Source: a virus. Taken from it: DNA of 25,311 bases. Position 1 is the first letter of the stretch. Each line of letters begins with the position of its first letter. Where the stretch lies: IMG/VR virus record IMGVR_UViG_3300025617_000106, positions 1-25,311 of that record, one strand, 5' to 3'. The notes below the pieces were generated by a model. That model had not been told where the DNA came from. It did no database searches and saw only the letters and a program-made list of their open reading frames with translations. The translations under genes and the position numbers were made by a program. Below, piece after piece: positions 14,031 through 25,311 of the stretch.

Positions 14031-14957
14031 ATGGCTTTTGGGATAACAGCGTTAAATAATAATAGTGAAACGCTTATTAGTTCAGAATATAAAAACTTAC
14101 ATTTCATTAATAAAATCACTAGCCCTACTTCTACACAAAAACAAACTACGCTATTTGGTGGAAGAGCGATACACACTTACAGAATAAGTAATTGTCCTTC
14201 TATACCAGTGCCCTTTTTGCATATGGATCCAATCGACAAAGCAGGAATTATTTCAATTAAACCTACTAGTGTTGCAAACCAATGGGATATAGAAGTTTTA
14301 ACTAGCAATCATGAGCCTACCGTTTATGTTTTTGCAGATGCTAGCTCTTTACAGCATGATGACGATTTTGGGCTAGCAGTTTATGGTTCTGATGGCGCAG
14401 CAAATTTTGATTCTAGGGCAAGACCTTTTGCAGTAGTTAACGCAGTAAATACTACGTTACCTCCAGATCCAAGAATTAACTGGAACGCTTCTTTAAACGC
14501 AAAATATTGCGCGGATAATGGAACTACAACTATGAGTAATCAAGCGTATCCTGACGCGTTTGAAATTTATAATGTGGCTAATCTTCCAGAAAAACCTATG
14601 TTTTTTTATTTTAGTGTTGGTCAATGCGAAAGAGAAGCTGAATTTTATACAAAAGAACAAGAGTGCGATAGCTTTAGCATTTATAATGAATGTGTTGCAC
14701 TTGGACGTAATTATGAATGGTGGTCGACTTATTGGATTTTTTACAGAGCAACTATGACTTGGCAGCCAGGTCAAATAGGAACTCATTGGACTATGGCAGA
14801 ATACGATTGCTACTGGAGACATGAGCAAGATAGCCAATCTTTTGGATTTGACACGGGTGGATCTTCAGATGCAGGCGGCGCATTTCCTTTAAGTAATAAA
14901 ACTATTAATGTTGACAGCAATATTATTATTATAGGAGATGCATCAAGATATGATTAA
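14031..14957 (+). CDS. Tail-tip accessory protein B
   Basis: A 308-residue protein with an AAGGA site four bases after the previous stop. The first 30 residues (MAFGITALNNNSETLISSEY) mirror those of protein A, followed by a strand-rich region with PVPFLHMDP and PTVYVFADASS. Residues about 150-270 are different: rich in aromatic residues and with six cysteines (in segments such as FSVGQCEREAEFYTKEQEC and NYEWWSTYWIFYRATMTW). Such aromatic-rich regions are common where proteins bind sugars, but no fold is recognised. The C-terminus is a simple beta tail ending IIIIGDASRYD. It probably extends the tip and may contact the receptor; this is inference. Confidence 0.6.
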   Translation: MAFGITALNNNSETLISSEYKNLHFINKITSPTSTQKQTTLFGGRAIHTYRISNCPSIPVPFLHMDPIDKAGIISIKPTSVANQWDIEVLTSNHEPTVYVFADASSLQHDDDFGLAVYGSDGAANFDSRARPFAVVNAVNTTLPPDPRINWNASLNAKYCADNGTTTMSNQAYPDAFEIYNVANLPEKPMFFYFSVGQCEREAEFYTKEQECDSFSIYNECVALGRNYEWWSTYWIFYRATMTWQPGQIGTHWTMAEYDCYWRHEQDSQSFGFDTGGSSDAGGAFPLSNKTINVDSNIIIIGDASRYD

Positions 14958-15147
14958 GCCGTTTACAATATTAAATCAACTAGAAGAAATTGGTGGCACT
15001 ATGGTTACTTTTAAACTAGTTTATAATACAAGAACTGAAAACCAAATACAAAGTAAAACAATAAAAACAGCTATTAAAGTACCGACAGGCTACGATATAG
15101 ATGAATACATTTTTAATTACGCTAAAGAGCATGGATGGATTTTATGA
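14950..15147 (+). CDS. Small unknown tail-region protein
   Basis: A small unknown protein. Several starts are possible: ATG 14938 touches the GGAG site too closely, ATG 14950 has the site 12 bases upstream, and ATG 15001 has GGTGG before it and would give 48 residues. I list 14950. The common part reads MVTFKLVYNTRTENQIQSKT and then IKVPTGYDIDEYIFNYAKEH, a simple beta-beta-alpha build. It overlaps the preceding gene and is coupled to the next by ATGA. I do not recognise a family. Confidence 0.5.
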   Translation: MIKPFTILNQLEEIGGTMVTFKLVYNTRTENQIQSKTIKTAIKVPTGYDIDEYIFNYAKEHGWIL

Positions 15148-15770
15148 TAGAAAAAATGATTTGTGATGGAGAAACAAGAATTGCTTACGAAAAAAGTGAT
15201 AGTGAATTTAGCAATCTTTTAGCTGTAATTGAAAATACCTTTGGTGAGCAACAAACAAATTTATGGCTATCTATTTCAAATCCGCATTATAATCCCGTAT
15301 TTGACGACTCTACAATAGCTGTTAAATTTCATACAAAGCCTGCTTATGCTGTATCTTTAGAGAATGAACCACAGCATGTAGGAAGAAAATTTGCTTTAAA
15401 TAAGCAATGGGTTTATGATAAGTTTTACTATATTACTTCTCGAGAGCTTTGCGAGTTACCTTATCCTAATAGCGCGTATCCTTTAGCAATTGGCATTTAC
15501 GAAAATATCTATGGGCAACCAGGAGATAGCGACTTATCAGCTTACAAATGTCTTTATTTTTCTTGCAATGACCATAATGAAGTGGAAAATTGGTGCGGTG
15601 AGACTTTGCCGCAAGGAGAAATAAGTACATACTACGCAGCAACATTTTTAAACAATGAATGTATTCGTGTAAAAACTTATTGTTATGATGATGAAAACGA
15701 ACTGCTTTCTGCATGGGAAGTTATATGGCTTCAGCATGCTAAAAAATTAGGAATGAGCACAGAAATGTAG
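15144..15770 (+). CDS. Unknown 208-residue protein
   Basis: Start taken at ATG 15144, which makes an ATGA overlap with the previous stop; ATG 15135 would add three residues. The protein is aromatic-rich with about seven cysteines, four of them in KCLYFSC, NWCGE and ECIR. Segments such as NLLAVIENTFGEQQTNLWLS, WVYDKFYYITSRELCEL and LSAWEVIWLQHAKKLG suggest an alpha/beta globular domain. I do not recognise it. Its place just before the fibre block, and its cysteine and tryptophan content like that of protein B, suggest a virion-tip or fibre-assembly protein. Its stop codon TAG is the first triplet of the 16-base element. Confidence 0.55.
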   Translation: MIEKMICDGETRIAYEKSDSEFSNLLAVIENTFGEQQTNLWLSISNPHYNPVFDDSTIAVKFHTKPAYAVSLENEPQHVGRKFALNKQWVYDKFYYITSRELCELPYPNSAYPLAIGIYENIYGQPGDSDLSAYKCLYFSCNDHNEVENWCGETLPQGEISTYYAATFLNNECIRVKTYCYDDENELLSAWEVIWLQHAKKLGMSTEM

Positions 15771-16464: not shown

Positions 16465-19400
16465 ATGGCTGATATAAGAATAGCGAGTGAAACTATTAAA
16501 GTTTCTTTATCTCGCGTTGGTCCACAAGGACCAGCAGGAACAGCTAGTATTTTAGCTGAAGAGCTAGCACGAATTGCTGGCGATTCCGACTTACAAGCGC
16601 AACTTGATGCCGCTATTGTAAGAATTGCCGCTGTAGAAGGTTTTACGGTTGGCGCTGGCTTTGTTAGCGATTCAGACTTAGCAGTAGTAGACGCTAAGGT
16701 TGACGCTTTAGAAGTAAAACATGATTCAGAAGTATATGTACTTCAAGAAACTATTGATAATCTAAGTACAGCTATTATTAACCTTGATAGCACAGCTTTA
16801 CAAAATCAATTAAATAATTTGTCAAGCACAGTTGGAGGTTTAGTAACTGAGCATGATTCTGACGTTATATCTTTGCAATCTCAAATAGATTCAATAGGTA
16901 CAGATACAGGAGATCGTCTTGACAGTGAGATTTTAGTTCGCGCTGCTGGCGATGTTGCAACATTAGCCTCTGCACAAGCTTATACTGATAGCGAAATTGC
17001 ATCATTAATTAATTCAGCGCCTGGCGCGTTAGATACTCTTAATGAGCTAGCAGCTGCCCTTGACAATGATTCTGATTTTGCTACAAGTATAACTACACAA
17101 ATTACAAATGAAAGCAATGCAAGAAGTTCTGCGGATACTGCACTGCATGATCGCCTAGATTCTGAATTAGCTCAAATAAGAGTAGAAATTGATGAAGAAG
17201 GCGCATCAGCTGTCAACCAAGTTACCGCAACGATTGTTGGAGAGGATACTCCTTCATCATTAAATACTTTAAAAGAAATTGCAGCTTCTATTAACAACGA
17301 TTCTGATGTATTTAACACATTAAATAATTCTATAATTGCTGTTGATGCGAGAGTTGATTCTGAAATTATAGCAAGAGATGCTGCAATAGCTGCGTCAGAA
17401 AGTAGCTTAAATGCATCGATAAATACACTTGATTCAGAGCTTGACTCTTCTGTTACTGAATTAAACGCAAGATTAGATTCAGAGTACCTTATTTTACAAA
17501 ATCTCATTGACGAAAATGAGTTACAACACGAAGCTGACCAACAGCAAGCTGAAGCAAATTATGAAGAACTTACAGGATCAATTGCGATAGAAGGAGTAGT
17601 TCGCGCAGAAGGTGATAGCGAGCTTAGCAACAGAATAGATTCAGAGCAAACAGCTCGCGTAGCAGGCGACTCTAATACGTTATCATCTGCACAAACGTAT
17701 ACCGATAATGCTATCAGCGATTTGGTTGACGGAGCACCTTTAGCTCTTGATACTTTAAACGAGTTAGCATCAGCTTTAAGTGATGATTCAGATGCGCTTG
17801 CAGCTTTAACAGTTAATTTATCAAACGAATCATCAGAAAGAGTTTCTGCAGATGATGCATTAGATACTCGTATTGATTCTGAGCAAACAGTTCGTGCATC
17901 TGAAGTATCTGCGCTTACGGCTGCTATAGATTCTGAAGAATCAGCGCGTATTTACGAAGATAACGTGCTTGATGGGCGCATTGACTCAGAGCAAGCTGCA
18001 AGAATAGCCGCAATTAATACTGTAGATTCAGATATTGCTACGGAATCTTCTGCAAGAGCAGCAGCAGACACAACTTTGTCTGACCGCATTGATTCTGAGC
18101 AATTAGCTCGAGTTGCATCAGATAATACTTTATCTAATCGCGTAGATTCAGAGGAAGTAGTTAGGGCTGCGGAAGATTTAGCTTTAGAGAGCAGAATAGA
18201 TTCAGAGCAAACTGCTAGGATTACAGCGGATGCTACTAAGCTTAGCATTGCTGATTTTAGCACAGAATTTGATTCTGATTTAGCCACTAAAACAACAGAT
18301 GCTTTAGCAGAAGGTGCTATTAATAGGTATTATACTGATGAGCGTGTAGATGATCGTGTTAGTAATTTGCTTGTAGCGGGTAATAATGTTAGCTTAAACT
18401 ATAATGATAGCGACGGTACTTTATTAATTAACTTAACTTCAGGTGAAGTTGGTTATGATCTTACAGGTAATACTACAGATGATCTTAGCGAAGGTGCTAG
18501 CAATAAATACTTTACAGATGCTAGAGCGCGCGACGCTTTAAGCGCCGGTACAGGTATTAGCTATGATAGCGATACTGGTATTATTTCGATTAATGATGCT
18601 GGTGTAGCAACTCAAAGCGAACTTAATACTGTTGAAAATCGTTTAGATTCTGAAATTGTAGTTAGAACAAATGCCGACAGTACGCTAGATGGCCGTATTG
18701 ATTCTGAAGCAACCGCTAGAATATCAGGAGATAGCTCAACACTTTCTTCAGCACAATCTTACACGGATACAGCTATTAGTAATCTTGTAGATGGTGCACC
18801 TCTAGCGCTAGATACGCTCAATGAGTTGGCCGCTGCACTTGGTGACGATTCAGATGCTTTAGCCGCATTAACTGTTGTTGTTGATAATCTTTCAATCGAA
18901 CATGATTCTGATAATTTAGTACTAACTAATCGTATTGCAGCAGAGGAAACAGCTAGAACAAATGCTGATTCAACTTTAGATTCTCGTATTGATTCTGAGG
19001 CTATTGCGCGTAGTAGTGCTGATACCGCATTAGATACTCGCATTGATTCTGAAGCTTTAGCTAGGATTTCTGCGGATGATGCGCTTCAAACAAATATTGA
19101 TACTCTTAGTACTGAACACGACTCAGATGTAACAGCGCTTGAAGCAGCTGATTCTGCGTTAGATTCACGTATTGATTCTGAGGCAGTTGCACGCGCAGCT
19201 CAAGATAGTACTTTGCAGTCTAATATTGATACGTTATCAACCGAGCACGACTCAGATGTGCTTGCTATTTATGCAGAACTTACTGCTATAAGTAATGAGC
19301 ATGATTCAGATGTTACCGCCATTAATACTGATATAACCGCGCTTGATAACCGTGTTGATAGCGAACAGCTGTCAAGAATTGCTGGAGATTCTACTACTTT

Positions 19401-22400
19401 ATCATCAGCACAAGGTTACACTGATACTGCTATAAGTAACTTAGTAAACGGCGCGCCTTTAGCGCTTGATACTTTAAAAGAGCTAGCAGACGCACTGTCA
19501 GATGATTCAGATGCGCTAGCTGCTTTGACAACTACAGTTTCTAATGAAACAACAAATCGTACAAATGCAGATACCGCTTTAGATGGCAGAATTGATAGTG
19601 AATCTGTTGCTCGTTATAATGAAGATACAGCAATTAATAACCGCATTGATTCCGAGCAATTAGCAAGAATTACGGTAGACTCTACAAAGCTTAATATATC
19701 AGATTTTGGATCACAATTTGATTCTGATTTTGCAGCTAAAACTACAAGTAATCTTACCGAAGGCACTAATAAATATTACACAGATGCCAGGGTTCAAGGA
19801 GTTGTTACAAAGGCATATGTTGAAGGCTTAGGAATAAGCTCAAGCAACGTAGCTTATGATAATGAGCACGCAACAGACTTGACAGCGACTACTGTACACG
19901 AAGCTATTGATCAATTAAATGCAATAAAGGCTTCTGTTGCTGATGTAGCATCTAACTTAATATTGTATCCAACAACAGCGTCTGCTGACGTAAGCGGTTA
20001 CTTTAAATTAGTTAGTAGCACAGATGACTCTGATTATAATACTACGGCTGTAGATATTTCTACAGGCGCAATTACAGGCAGCGATGTACTTATTTCAACA
20101 CTAATAAGTGATGCTAATGTAATTGGTGGAAATCCTGGTGTTATTAATTTATCTGTTATAGGTAATATACGCAAAATATCTGGTAACGATGACGCTCACT
20201 TTTATTTTACAGTTTCTGTAAGAGATTCTGATAATAATGAAGTACTGCTAAGCACGTCTAACCAAACAGATACTATAACAGTTTCTACGTACGAGCAATT
20301 TGCGGCATCTGCTTTGCTAAATGATGTAGCTTTTGCATCTACAGACCGCTTAGTTTATCGCTTTTATGGAATAAAAGTAGGCACTTCAACAGATCCTACT
20401 TACGAATTCCAATTTGGTGGTGGAAATCCAGTTCGTGCGCTTGTACCTTTACCGTTCAGCGCTGTGCCTATTAATGTTGATAGTTCTAACTTAGTAATTG
20501 ATACAGCAAACTTTGGTGGAATACTTTCTGCCTCTGACGCAATATTACAAGATGCGCTTGATATAATTGATGGTGTTACTACAAGTGAAGTTCCTGAAGG
20601 TTCTAACTTGTATTATACAGATGTAAGAGCTAGAAAAGCTATAGCAGGCTCTTCTGGTATTAGCTACGATAGTGATACCGGTATCATATCGATTAATGAC
20701 AGCTATTTAGCAACGCAAGCAGAGCTTGATGCAGTAAGCGATACTTTGTCTGCGCTATCTACAGAACATGACTCGGATACAACTTCACTGCAGTCGCAGA
20801 TTAATACTGTAAATAGCACGTTATCTGCGTTATCTACAGAGCATGACTCTGATGTAATTGTGCTTAATGCTGCTATTACTTCAGGTGATTCTAATACTTT
20901 ATCATCAGCGCAATCATATACTGACACGGCAATTTCTGATCTTGTAAATGGCGCACCTTTAGCGTTAGATACATTAAAAGAATTAGCAGATGCGCTTTCT
21001 AACGATTCTGATGCCTTAGCTGCTTTAACTACAGTTGTAGATGAATTATCGCAAGAGCATGATTCTGATACTACTGCTTTACAAGCTCAAATTGATACTA
21101 TAAATAGCGATGTCAACGAATTGTCAACTGAGCATGACTCTGATGTGGCATCTTTGCAAAGCCAAATAGACGCAATTCAAGCAAGCGCTTATGATGATAC
21201 GGCAGTAAATGATCGTATTGATTCTGAAGCAGCTATTCTTAGCGCGCTTGTAGCAGAGCATGATAGTGATACCACTTATCTTCAAGCACAAATTAGTGAT
21301 TTAGTCAATGAACATGACTCTGATGTTACTTCTTTGCAAGGGCAAATAAGTACTCTTGACAGTACGCTAGTATCTTTAGACAGTACTGTTGGTACTCTTT
21401 CTGGTACTGTTAGCGCGTTAAGTACTGAGCATGATAGCGATATTACTTCGCTTCAAAATCAGATTACAACTTTAGATGACACAGTAAGTACTTTAAGTAC
21501 AGAACATGATAGCGACACTGCTTCTTTACAAGGACAGATAAATACTCTTGATAGTACTCTCACATCTTTAGATGGTACTGTTAGCACGTTAAGTACTGAA
21601 CATGACAGTGATATTACTTCGTTACAAGGACAAATAAATACACTAACATCAGATTTGTCTACTTTGTCTACTGAGCATGACAGTGATACTGCTTCATTGC
21701 AAAGTCAAATAAGTACTCTTGATAGCACTGTTAGCGCGCTTTCAGCTGAGCACGATAGCGATGTTACTTCATTACAAACGCAAATTACTTCTGTTGACGA
21801 TACACTAAGTGCGTTGTCTACAGAGCATGACAGCGATGTAACAGCGTTGGAATCAGCTATTTCAAGCGGTGATTCTACTACTTTATCATCTGCTCAGTCT
21901 TATACTGATTCAGCTATTAGCGATCTTGTTAATGGAGCGCCTGTTGCTCTTGATACACTTAATGAGCTTGCAACAGCTTTAAGCGATGATTCTGATGCTT
22001 TAGCAGCATTAACTGTTTTAGTAGATAATTTGTCTACAGAACACGATTCTGATGTAACTTCATTACAAGAACAAATAGATACGCTAACATCAGATTTGTC
22101 TACTTTGTCTACGGAGCATGACTCAGACACTGCATCATTGCAAAGTCAAATAACAACTGTTGATGGTACGCTTAGTACGCTTAATAATACCGTTTCAACG
22201 TTATCCAATGAGCATGACTCTGATGTTACATCTTTGCAGTCACAAATTACAGCGTTATCTAATGAGCATGATTCTGATGTAACTGCTTTAGAATCATCTA
22301 TTGCGGCTATTAATGGACTTAATGTACAAACATTAACTACGACAAGTACAAGTGCTGCAACTATTGCATCATTCAGCGCAACAACTTACGCGGGAGCTAA

Positions 22401-22632
22401 AGTGGTCATTATGGCGCACGATACAGTTACCGACGAAAGACATGCTTCTGAATTATTGATGACTCACGACGGTACCCTGCCACAATCTGTAGAATATGGC
22501 ACGGTTACTACAGATGCAGAATTGTCTGCTTACAGTGTAGCTCTCCAAAACGGAAGCTTAAACCTGCGCGCAGTACCTGCATCATCGAACTCAACTAAGT
22601 TTACTGTTACAGCAACTTTGATTGAGATTTAA
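16465..22632 (+). CDS. Giant repeat-built tail fibre
   Basis: An uninterrupted 2055-residue protein with CGGAG before its ATG. Residues 19-27 form a short collagen-like piece (GPQGPAGTA). The shaft holds about 19 'R-[ILV]-DSE' units spaced by 18 or more residues, 22 'HDS[DE]' units (21 HDSD), many at 25-residue spacing between about 1430 and 1945, and six copies of a module of about 42 residues (AQ-x-YTD to ALDTL-x-ELA-x-AL-x-DDSD) starting near residues 170, 409, 763, 982, 1482 and 1810. Four EG-x-x-x-YYTD/YFTD-R units lie near 615, 674, 1097 and 1376. A globular beta domain of about 1165-1336 interrupts it (HFYFTVSVRDSDNNEVLL). Residues 1952-2055 form a compact C-terminal domain ending TLIEI. 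It is cysteine-free as far as I saw. It should form a trimer that binds the host. Confidence 0.85.
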   Translation: MADIRIASETIKVSLSRVGPQGPAGTASILAEELARIAGDSDLQAQLDAAIVRIAAVEGFTVGAGFVSDSDLAVVDAKVDALEVKHDSEVYVLQETIDNLSTAIINLDSTALQNQLNNLSSTVGGLVTEHDSDVISLQSQIDSIGTDTGDRLDSEILVRAAGDVATLASAQAYTDSEIASLINSAPGALDTLNELAAALDNDSDFATSITTQITNESNARSSADTALHDRLDSELAQIRVEIDEEGASAVNQVTATIVGEDTPSSLNTLKEIAASINNDSDVFNTLNNSIIAVDARVDSEIIARDAAIAASESSLNASINTLDSELDSSVTELNARLDSEYLILQNLIDENELQHEADQQQAEANYEELTGSIAIEGVVRAEGDSELSNRIDSEQTARVAGDSNTLSSAQTYTDNAISDLVDGAPLALDTLNELASALSDDSDALAALTVNLSNESSERVSADDALDTRIDSEQTVRASEVSALTAAIDSEESARIYEDNVLDGRIDSEQAARIAAINTVDSDIATESSARAAADTTLSDRIDSEQLARVASDNTLSNRVDSEEVVRAAEDLALESRIDSEQTARITADATKLSIADFSTEFDSDLATKTTDALAEGAINRYYTDERVDDRVSNLLVAGNNVSLNYNDSDGTLLINLTSGEVGYDLTGNTTDDLSEGASNKYFTDARARDALSAGTGISYDSDTGIISINDAGVATQSELNTVENRLDSEIVVRTNADSTLDGRIDSEATARISGDSSTLSSAQSYTDTAISNLVDGAPLALDTLNELAAALGDDSDALAALTVVVDNLSIEHDSDNLVLTNRIAAEETARTNADSTLDSRIDSEAIARSSADTALDTRIDSEALARISADDALQTNIDTLSTEHDSDVTALEAADSALDSRIDSEAVARAAQDSTLQSNIDTLSTEHDSDVLAIYAELTAISNEHDSDVTAINTDITALDNRVDSEQLSRIAGDSTTLSSAQGYTDTAISNLVNGAPLALDTLKELADALSDDSDALAALTTTVSNETTNRTNADTALDGRIDSESVARYNEDTAINNRIDSEQLARITVDSTKLNISDFGSQFDSDFAAKTTSNLTEGTNKYYTDARVQGVVTKAYVEGLGISSSNVAYDNEHATDLTATTVHEAIDQLNAIKASVADVASNLILYPTTASADVSGYFKLVSSTDDSDYNTTAVDISTGAITGSDVLISTLISDANVIGGNPGVINLSVIGNIRKISGNDDAHFYFTVSVRDSDNNEVLLSTSNQTDTITVSTYEQFAASALLNDVAFASTDRLVYRFYGIKVGTSTDPTYEFQFGGGNPVRALVPLPFSAVPINVDSSNLVIDTANFGGILSASDAILQDALDIIDGVTTSEVPEGSNLYYTDVRARKAIAGSSGISYDSDTGIISINDSYLATQAELDAVSDTLSALSTEHDSDTTSLQSQINTVNSTLSALSTEHDSDVIVLNAAITSGDSNTLSSAQSYTDTAISDLVNGAPLALDTLKELADALSNDSDALAALTTVVDELSQEHDSDTTALQAQIDTINSDVNELSTEHDSDVASLQSQIDAIQASAYDDTAVNDRIDSEAAILSALVAEHDSDTTYLQAQISDLVNEHDSDVTSLQGQISTLDSTLVSLDSTVGTLSGTVSALSTEHDSDITSLQNQITTLDDTVSTLSTEHDSDTASLQGQINTLDSTLTSLDGTVSTLSTEHDSDITSLQGQINTLTSDLSTLSTEHDSDTASLQSQISTLDSTVSALSAEHDSDVTSLQTQITSVDDTLSALSTEHDSDVTALESAISSGDSTTLSSAQSYTDSAISDLVNGAPVALDTLNELATALSDDSDALAALTVLVDNLSTEHDSDVTSLQEQIDTLTSDLSTLSTEHDSDTASLQSQITTVDGTLSTLNNTVSTLSNEHDSDVTSLQSQITALSNEHDSDVTALESSIAAINGLNVQTLTTTSTSAATIASFSATTYAGAKVVIMAHDTVTDERHASELLMTHDGTLPQSVEYGTVTTDAELSAYSVALQNGSLNLRAVPASSNSTKFTVTATLIEI

Positions 22633-22688: not shown

Positions 22689-23036
22689 ATGGCAGAAAAA
22701 GACTTTATAGTCAAAAAAGGTCTACAAGTAGGCGAAAATATCGTCTCTGGTGGTACCGTCGATGGTCGTACTTTATCAACTGATGGAGCTAAGCTTGATG
22801 GAATTGCGGCAGGCGCAACAAACTATGGAGATAGCGAAGTTGCTTCGTATCTTAGCGCTAATAGCTACGCAACAGAAACCTACGTTACATATGCAACTGA
22901 TGGCTTTATAACTGCGTCGTATCTTACCTCTAATAATTACGCAACGCAAAGCTACGTTCAATCACAAATTCCAGACACAGCGCAGCTAGAAGACGATGTT
23001 GATACAGCGACTGCTTTAGCTCTTGTTGGTTTATAA
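22689..23036 (+). CDS. Small fibre-associated protein
   Basis: A 115-residue protein between the two large fibre genes. It contains DGRTLSTDGAKLDGIAAGAT, a motif of phage fibres of the type where a short segment turns into the shaft, and then alternating Y/T/A-rich segments (SYLSANSYATETYVTYATDG and a similar SYLTSNNYATQSYVQSQ) that look like two beta-repeat units of about 19 residues. Its end is an acidic helix (AQLEDDVDTATALALVGL). It may be an adaptor between fibres or a separated part of the following protein; the stop codon and the next GGAG-ATG are almost contiguous. It is not recognised as a known functional family. Confidence 0.65.
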   Translation: MAEKDFIVKKGLQVGENIVSGGTVDGRTLSTDGAKLDGIAAGATNYGDSEVASYLSANSYATETYVTYATDGFITASYLTSNNYATQSYVQSQIPDTAQLEDDVDTATALALVGL

Positions 23037-23046
23037 GGAGAATTAA

Positions 23047-24621
23047 ATGGCACTTAATACAGCAACGTATACTACTGCTTTGCAAGCAAAACTAAATGCG
23101 GCAAGTAGTTCAGATACGGAAACTAATTTATTGCTGCTAGCAAAAGCACTTGAATCTTTTGACTCAGTAGTAACACAAACATACGCAAGCTCATCTGCTT
23201 TTCCAGCAGCTAGCTCGTCAGAAGGCGCTATTGTTTACGCGCTTGATGTAAATACTTTGCACTATTCAGATGGATCTACTTGGAATGAAGTAGGTGGATC
23301 TATAGGTGCAGGTGAAGTTACACTTGAAATGCTTGATACAAGCTGCTATACTTGGTCTAATGGTCGAGTACTTACACTATACAATAGTGGCTACGGCTAC
23401 GAAATGTGTTGGTGTGATGCAGGTGGTGGTTACACAGCCTCGTGTAATAATAACATCTACTCATGTAACGCTAATGCTACTTACAAAACTGCAACTTCTT
23501 CAGTGATAATAGGGTACAACGCTTGCGCGACAGGTAACGTATCTGTTGCTATTGGTTGCAGTAGTGCTGCGGCATACACTTCTGTAGCTGTTGGATGTTA
23601 TGCTCGAGCGACTGGAAGCGGCAGCATTGCAATCGGCTCAAACGCTGGTTCTTTAGCAAACTGCTCAATAGCTATCGGTAAATCAGCGTGTGCTTGCAGT
23701 ACTGGCGCTATTACTATAATGGCTTGCAATTACTTAGGTTGCAATATCAATAAAGGTAATATACAAATAGGCAGTGGGTGCTGCAATAGAATGTATGGCA
23801 CCAACTCTTGCAATAACATACAAATTGTGCCATGTACCACACGATCGCTCATGGCCTCAGGTCTTTATAACGTGCAGATAGGAGCTACTACAGGTAGTAC
23901 GCAAGGTTCTGGTAGCTGCAACGTAAATATTAATTCGCCATCTAGTAACGTGTACTCAAACTGTACCACCTTAATTAATTCATGCGGCAGTCGGCCGAAT
24001 GGACGCAATATTTATATTGGATCTAATGGACTTTGCTGCATTGGTCCAGGTGGAGCTACTATTTTAAACGGCACCGCATCCGGTTTTAGATCGCATATAA
24101 ACTACCAGCAAGGTTGGGATATGGCTAATGCCAGCGGCTTTGCGTTATTCTTAGGATCTACAGACACGTATAGTGGACCAGGTTGGGTTCTATATGACGA
24201 ATGCCCTGGTGGCTACACAGGTGGCGCTTGTTTCTTTGATAAGTTCTTTAGTATTAAAGCTGGTTACTCTAACGGTATAATGCGTTATTGCTTAAATGTA
24301 ACAATGAAACTGTATGATAGCAACGCAAACGATGCTTATCTTCTTACAGAGCATTGCGGTTTTGCACTTTATAGCAGACCAGATCCATATAATCCTTATG
24401 CAGCTAGCGGATTTAGTAATCTTTGCCAGTTGTGTAACAATGTTATCTTTAGCTGTAATCCGCAACATCTTGTTGGTTCTGCTAATACTAGCACTCCAAT
24501 ATGCGCAATTATAGGAAACTATAGCAGTACTGCGCAATTTACGCTTTGTGTAGGCAGTGCAGAATGTTCTTGCTCGCCTAGAGCACACGTTACTGGCTAT
24601 ATTGATATGCTTTGGGCATAA
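23047..24621 (+). CDS. Cysteine-rich, YadA-head-like fibre protein
   Basis: A 524-residue protein with GGAG before its ATG. Residues 1-99 have no cysteine and contain a helix and a strand pair (GAIVYALDVNTLHYSDGST), a piece common in phage fibres. From residue 100 to the end I count about 33 cysteines, close to 8 percent, many in CxC or CC pairs (MCWCD, SACACS, GSGCCN, GLCCIG, AECSCS). Residues about 150-215 carry four left-handed beta-roll rungs of the YadA-head type: SVIIGYNACATG, SVAIGCSSAAAY, SVAVGCYARATG and SIAIGSNAGS, spaced by about 14-16 residues. Further IQIG/VQIG strands continue to about residue 330. The last third is a beta domain. A trimeric adhesin is inferred. Cysteines may form disulphides, or stack as a ladder, after release from the cell. 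This is unlike the other virion proteins here. Confidence 0.75.
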   Translation: MALNTATYTTALQAKLNAASSSDTETNLLLLAKALESFDSVVTQTYASSSAFPAASSSEGAIVYALDVNTLHYSDGSTWNEVGGSIGAGEVTLEMLDTSCYTWSNGRVLTLYNSGYGYEMCWCDAGGGYTASCNNNIYSCNANATYKTATSSVIIGYNACATGNVSVAIGCSSAAAYTSVAVGCYARATGSGSIAIGSNAGSLANCSIAIGKSACACSTGAITIMACNYLGCNINKGNIQIGSGCCNRMYGTNSCNNIQIVPCTTRSLMASGLYNVQIGATTGSTQGSGSCNVNINSPSSNVYSNCTTLINSCGSRPNGRNIYIGSNGLCCIGPGGATILNGTASGFRSHINYQQGWDMANASGFALFLGSTDTYSGPGWVLYDECPGGYTGGACFFDKFFSIKAGYSNGIMRYCLNVTMKLYDSNANDAYLLTEHCGFALYSRPDPYNPYAASGFSNLCQLCNNVIFSCNPQHLVGSANTSTPICAIIGNYSSTAQFTLCVGSAECSCSPRAHVTGYIDMLWA

Positions 24622-24941: not shown

Positions 24942-25311
24942 ATGATTCGTAATGTACATGTATTTACAAACGTTACGGAGAATATAAGAACACACCGCAC
25001 CATCAAAGAGACTATAAGTAGTTTTATTAGTCGCTTTGGTGGTGACTTTTTATTTACAATTTGGTGTGATGTTCATCCTAACGAAAAATTAGAAGATATT
25101 GAATTTTATTTTAATTATCTCAAAAAGGAATTTCCATTTGCAGTAGTTAATAAAACTCAAGGCATGACTAAAGGTTATTTGCAAATGCTAGAACAAGAAA
25201 AAGAGGAATTTGTTTTTATTTTAGAGCACGACTGGGTGCTTAACGAAAAAATTGAGTGTACGCTAAAAGAAGTTACCGAAACAATGAAGCAAGATAATCT
25301 GCTTTCTTATT
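24942..25311 (+). CDS. Glycosyltransferase-like protein (5' part only)
   Basis: The gene starts at ATG 24942, six bases after the previous stop, and runs off the window end after 123 codons. No good ribosome site is seen, so the start is provisional. The N-terminus reads MIRNVHVFTNVTENIRTHRT, then a strand FLFTIWCDVHPNEKLEDIEF, a helix, a strand PFAVVNKTQGMTKG and a strand FVFILEHDWVLN. The EHDW at the end of a hydrophobic strand lies where GT-A glycosyltransferases have the D-x-D-type nucleotide-sugar site. A sugar transferase that modifies a virion or cell glycan is inferred. The full gene is needed to be sure. Confidence 0.5.
   Translation, partial: MIRNVHVFTNVTENIRTHRTIKETISSFISRFGGDFLFTIWCDVHPNEKLEDIEFYFNYLKKEFPFAVVNKTQGMTKGYLQMLEQEKEEFVFILEHDWVLNEKIECTLKEVTETMKQDNLLSY

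Follow-up and report, generated by a model that had tools for sequence, protein, structure and literature searches.

Cysteine in a YadA-head-like phage fibre protein and in related β-roll fibres of environmental viruses

Why does a phage with otherwise cysteine-poor virion proteins encode a fibre protein with 33 cysteines, and are these residues arranged in any order? The question is raised by a 25.3-kb IMG/VR virus record (the window, i.e., the whole stretch of DNA that was analysed), which represents a tailed phage and includes its capsid and tail modules. The major capsid protein of the window is 46% identical to its counterpart in Bacteriophage DSS3_VP1 (Naomviridae). Of the 524 aa of the fibre protein, 33 are Cys (6.3%), residue 100 being the first; the codon is TGC in 20 cases and TGT in 13. 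An earlier note, made by a model from the sequence alone, had counted about 33 Cys and about 8% beyond residue 99; we obtained 33 and 7.7%, respectively. Its statement that the other large virion proteins have one cysteine or none was also borne out, because the tape measure, tail tip, 2055-aa fibre, and major capsid protein have none. Besides, two ORFs past the tail-tip gene (14031-14957 and 15135-15770) carry 6 and 7 Cys, against 0 to 1 in most virion proteins here; the former matches phrog_6061 (unknown function), and the latter matches nothing.

Table 1. Features at the fibre locus (positions in the window; residues are those of the fibre protein)
Feature	Position	Strand	Remarks
AAGGAG ribosome-binding site	23035-23040	+	6 nt ahead of fibre ATG; read off the sequence
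Cys-rich fibre ORF	23047-24621	+	Intact, 524 aa
N-terminal anchor module, residues 1-95	23047-23331	+	Cys-free; two helices and a small β element; from homology and AF2
Cys-rich linker, residues 100-147	23344-23487	+	5 Cys; low confidence in AF2 model
β-roll, residues 148-345	23488-24081	+	17 Cys; from sequence, AF2, and Foldseek
C-terminal domain, residues 346-524	24082-24618	+	11 Cys; no relative found; pLDDT <50
Upstream small fibre-like ORF, 115 aa	22689-23036	+	phrog_32829, tail fiber, E = 1e-8
Downstream small ORF, 95 aa	24649-24936	+	phrog_18037 (unknown function), E = 2e-6
Truncated ORF at window end	24942-25310		

The N-terminal module has 36 to 39% identity with the start of four proteins from environmental phages (L342-L345), which beyond this region are unrelated to the window fibre and nearly Cys-free; AF2 places its helices at residues 5 to 18 and 25 to 46. 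Exchangeable receptor-binding proteins are usually built in this way, with a shared N-terminus and an unrelated remainder. Residues 152 to 220 comprise five YadA-head rungs of 13 to 14 residues each with tandem SxA(I/V)G motifs, SVAIGC (residues 166 to 171) and SVAVGC (residues 179 to 184) among them, and past residue 220 follow irregular N-I-x-I-G rungs of 16 to 19 residues. Pfam YadA_head (PF05658) matched the protein at 14.8 bits (E = 0.039), under its cut-off of 25, and NCBIfam YadA_autotrans at E = 1e-4, far under its cut-off. The best sequence match in the PDB by phmmer was the solved YadA structure 1p9h (E = 0.005), and YadA-type phage proteins reached 49 to 50% identity over 62 to 65 residues, with E values down to 1e-8 when no low-complexity filter was applied. 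An AF2 model, computed as a monomer from a 30-row alignment, has a regular strand pattern with a pLDDT of about 90 across residues 151 to 210 and no confidence past residue 336; single-sequence AF2 (pLDDT 32.6) was useless. In a Foldseek search with the model against the PDB, the top nine matches were all head domains or fragments of YadA-type trimeric adhesins (best E = 0.004, none below 0.001), and the viral matches include proteins annotated as trimeric adhesin heads. These rung matches, together with the survey described below, support the earlier description of a YadA-head-like fibre with unusual cysteine content.

The protein shares with the heads of trimeric autotransporter adhesins (YadA, 1p9h; BoaA, 3s6l; AtaA, 3wp8; PF05658) the 13- to 14-residue SxAIG rungs and, presumably, a left-handed β-roll and a trimeric adhesive head. 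Unlike these adhesins, it is encoded by a phage, carries a fibre-type anchor, and is rich in cysteine. No YadA-type C-terminal membrane anchor or secretion signal was found, nor any other autotransporter part; YadA_head was the sole Pfam match, and the context is that of a phage fibre. YadA domains in marine phages have already been reported as putative receptor-binding proteins (PMC7029224).

We found no close relative of the fibre. A tblastn search of INPHARED phages with the whole protein and with pieces of it returned nothing significant (the C-terminal domain had no match at all), a related-locus search of viral and genome contigs returned nothing, and no fibre relative was present among 31 sister contigs identified via the major capsid protein. 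Cys-rich ORFs that appeared in the sister contigs were antisense frames. One sister contig, G002 (IMGVR_UViG_3300021958_000120; loci L089-L091), is syntenic with the window up to and including the tail-tip gene, with an identity of about 50%. Its fibre gene set is largely different and Cys-poor, which would be expected where host-recognition genes are exchangeable.

The Cys-free fibre of 2055 residues (16465-22632) has a peculiarity of its own, namely 38 D-S/T-D motifs against 7 expected, mostly as EHDSD or HDSD within a coiled-coil-like repeat. An origin at the DNA level was dismissed because the codon use is varied, which places the enrichment at the protein level. DSD and DTD are also abundant in the tail-tip and fibre genes of G002.

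How unusual the cysteine content is was assessed by surveying IMG/VR for β-rolls with DNA patterns, one of which (17-residue NTAIG rungs) names no Cys. This Cys-neutral pattern yielded 94 nonredundant proteins of the 17-residue type; rung Cys was absent in 51 and reached at least 0.4 per rung in 11, and the top 10% of the proteins hold 73% of all rung Cys. The distribution is therefore skewed, with a rich minority. Rich members retrieved with a Cys-bearing pattern contain 122 Cys in 1689 residues, 77 in 1117, 61 in 954, and 171 in 3191, and the richest β-roll fibres of IMG/VR have 4 to 7% Cys. Named phages are represented by Marine virus AG-345-L05 (Kyanoviridae), with 75 Cys in 2491 residues, and by Pelagibacter phages HTVC112P (14 Cys) and HTVC111P (12 Cys). 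The Cys-rich NTAIG-type rolls (L194, L178, L210, L170, L202, and L278; AG-345-L05; HTVC111P and HTVC112P at lower levels) have in common with the window fibre that Cys occupies variable positions, often just before the rung Asn (CN occurs 9 times in the window fibre, against 3.4 expected). They differ in having regular 17-residue rungs and in being mostly longer, whereas the rungs of the window fibre are mainly of the 14-residue YadA kind and its C-terminal domain is rich in Cys. The window fibre falls outside the Cys-rich 17-residue NTAIG class (regular rungs averaging 0.4 Cys or more), having rungs of 13 to 14 residues and then irregular ones.

Among 101 sampled phage proteins with 14-residue YadA rungs, only one exceeds 4% Cys and none reaches 6%. 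That one, L357 (23 Cys in 500 aa; 4.6%), carries Cys in its rungs as the window fibre does, but has less of it and ends in what looks by eye like an intramolecular-chaperone-like (S74-type) tail. Thus, the claim of exceptional cysteine content stands as far as YadA-type proteins are concerned, and fails if taken to mean one of a kind, since Cys-rich rolls occur elsewhere in IMG/VR: the window fibre is extreme for its rung type, yet one case of a recurring phenomenon. Cys-rich fibres, YadA heads, and β-rolls in phages were looked for in the open-access literature, and no description of such a pattern was found, so that the earlier suggestion of an undescribed kind of phage fibre apparently holds. 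Most virion proteins in the window and most sampled β-roll fibres are Cys-poor, and a recurring minority with 4 to 7% Cys at variable positions and unpaired is new to the papers searched. An AIGC-x10-AIGC pattern gave mostly noise, the exception being a YadA-containing phage protein of 732 aa (L122). In that contig, two Cys-bearing proteins lie side by side, one of 330 aa with 11 Cys and the 732-aa protein with 18, the latter with Cys in its YadA rungs.

The earlier note had proposed that cysteines one rung apart form a ladder, and had pointed to CxC and CC pairs along the protein. Such pairs are present, but at chance frequency (CC, 2 against 2.5 expected; CxC, 3 against 2.5), CxxC also occurs as often as under random placement, and separations of 12 to 14 residues number 5 against 7.2. 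C171 and C184 are the sole Cys of the five canonical rungs that occupy the same position in adjacent rungs. Across the 17-residue class, Cys makes up 4.7 to 14.8% of the variable positions 6, 7, 10, 11, 16, and 17 of the rung and at most 0.2% of positions 1 to 5, 8, 9, 12, and 15, being almost absent from the conserved core; the former define three "corners" (positions 6-7, 10-11, and 16-17), which we assigned from the repeat pattern and not from a structure. A set of 65 rich proteins contained 1598 Cys, of which a fraction of 0.411 (0.430 expected) had another Cys at the same corner, either in their own rung or in the next one; pairs in adjacent rungs numbered 341 against 340, and pairs within a rung only 63 against 102, a deficit not seen for Ser and Asn. 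The per-rung variance of Cys was 0.84 of that expected. The main search pattern could be matched only by proteins with an adjacent Cys pair. We therefore repeated the count on 75 proteins, each with one such pair masked; the fraction with a same-corner neighbour was then 0.371 against 0.407, adjacent pairs numbered 302 against 321 expected, and same-rung pairs 58 against 96 (z = -4.7). Cys at position 17 of neighbouring rungs had seemed to be in excess (59 against 40), which the search pattern can explain; after masking, no surplus of adjacent pairs was left. Thus, with no excess of pairs and a same-rung deficit, the cysteines are placed singly and, if anything, apart from one another, and the proposed ladder was not upheld, either in this protein, where the spacing is random, or class-wide.

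These numbers bear directly on the possibility that the solenoid is hardened by disulphides, with Cys that lie next to each other, within a roll or on different chains, being oxidized after lysis so as to stiffen the fibre. There is a precedent in Agrobacterium phage Milano, the virion proteins of which are extensively disulphide-linked (PMC10811340); it has Cys-rich structural proteins as here, although in Milano many virion proteins contribute Cys (2.1% on average) and the bonds are mapped, whereas here a single protein is rich and bonds are not evident from the statistics. About 40% of the class Cys do have a same-corner partner in the same or next rung, and C171 and C184 would be suitably placed, but that share is the chance level, same-rung pairs are depleted, Cys positions are not conserved, and the 33 Cys show no excess of CxC, CC, or rung spacing. 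We therefore regard such hardening as improbable.

Conservation was examined in the class and in distant rolls, no close relative of the window fibre itself having been found. In rolls at least 50% identical, Cys at variable sites was kept in 31% of cases, compared with 37% for Asn, 32% for Ala, and 28% for Gly, and a pair of rolls at 82% identity has 14 Cys in common and 8 in one protein only. In 50 distant roll segments, the Cys of the window fibre were matched by Cys in 1% of the cells, whereas Gly, Ala, and Ile were kept in 55 to 73%. By these alignments, cysteine is dispensable for the roll fold. The free replacement of Cys by relatives, which the earlier note had set against its own proposal, does occur at the class level, that is, among related but more distant rolls.

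We consider the chance somewhat below even that the protein serves a tailed siphovirus of marine type as a modular receptor-binding fibre, or adhesin, its surface coated with scattered thiols none of which is needed individually. The conserved N-terminal anchor, for which homology was found, would join the fibre to the tail; the YadA-type β-roll indicated by sequence and model would be the shaft or head, probably as a trimer, and the C-terminal domain may form the tip. The cysteines, located at variable roll positions outside the conserved core, would be exposed. Since they are single and irregularly spaced at variable sites, what selection maintains would be a dense cover of exposed thiols over the surface that adheres, and not a designed set of bonds. 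The thiols might exchange with disulphides of host surface proteins or stick to such proteins. A wider hypothesis is that phages repeatedly evolve such "thiol-coat" β-roll adhesins, selection keeping the density of dispersed, exposed Cys while their positions turn over, and adsorption proceeding by thiol chemistry (host disulphide exchange or soft-metal bridging) with no fixed binding site; we regard this as rather unlikely. If thiols do act in adsorption, this would be a receptor-binding chemistry absent from the open-access papers searched.

Random placement of Cys would also fit neutral drift of the surface with no thiol function. Cys would then be tolerated at exposed roll sites in place of Ser, Thr, Ala, or Asp, and its richness would reflect lineage history or habitat, e.g., low-oxygen water. 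Besides the random spacing in the window fibre and the free turnover in homologues, the composition of Cys-rich rolls agrees with this in that Ser, Thr, Ala, and Asp are fewer (the last about half). These rolls also have more Arg and Phe, and unchanged His. The heavily skewed distribution among the 94 proteins, however, is not what drift would suggest, and neither are the same-rung avoidance and the neighbour genes of Cys-rich rolls, which are not enriched in Cys (1.2% against 0.9%; P = 0.25); together, these suggest that cysteine content belongs to the fibre as a property of its own, independent of the genome around it. Drift appears somewhat unlikely, and it and exposed-thiol adhesion are the two readings left standing. 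Should the thiols play no role in adsorption, the fibres would clearly exemplify a solenoid whose surface composition has drifted.

The other role suggested earlier, metal binding, gained no support. In this scheme, soft metals bound by Cys clusters would be offered to the uptake receptors of the host, as proposed for the HxH iron sites of marine phage fibres, and fibres with potentially iron-binding HxH motifs have been reported in phages (PMC11705849). The window fibre, however, has neither HxH nor CxxCH motifs, close Cys pairs are avoided, and the make-up of Cys-rich rolls, with no enrichment of His and about half the Asp, is not that of Cys/His/Asp metal sites. A metal-binding adhesin is very unlikely in our judgment. 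A hardened or metal-bound fibre, as the earlier note envisaged, is possible, with no statistical sign of either.

Finally, the cysteines might be sites of covalent modification (e.g., S-glycosylation) by phage enzymes encoded beside the fibre gene. In 9 of 33 Cys-rich β-roll loci, and in none of 24 Cys-poor ones, the gene immediately downstream is heptosyltransferase-like (GT9), and genes that look sulfotransferase-like by eye are also present near such loci. The nine GT9 cases form a single homologous cluster, however, and so are not independent, and sulfotransferase-like genes also adjoin a Cys-poor roll. In the window, the ORF at 24942-25310 matched no family model (glycosyltransferase models included) and no phage relative, and a sequence relation to the GT9-like genes of pelagiphages was looked for and not found. 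A FILEHDWVL stretch in this ORF is reminiscent of the acidic motifs of glycosyltransferases. We regard modification as very unlikely and the GT9 neighbourhood as a lead only. The loci with arrangements of this kind include L149, L152, L156, L173, L197, L222, and L297, and L108 and L109: a GT9-like gene directly follows the β-roll fibre gene in many pelagiphage-like contigs, and in others the fibre gene is followed by genes that by eye resemble those of sulfotransferases or nucleotidyltransferases.
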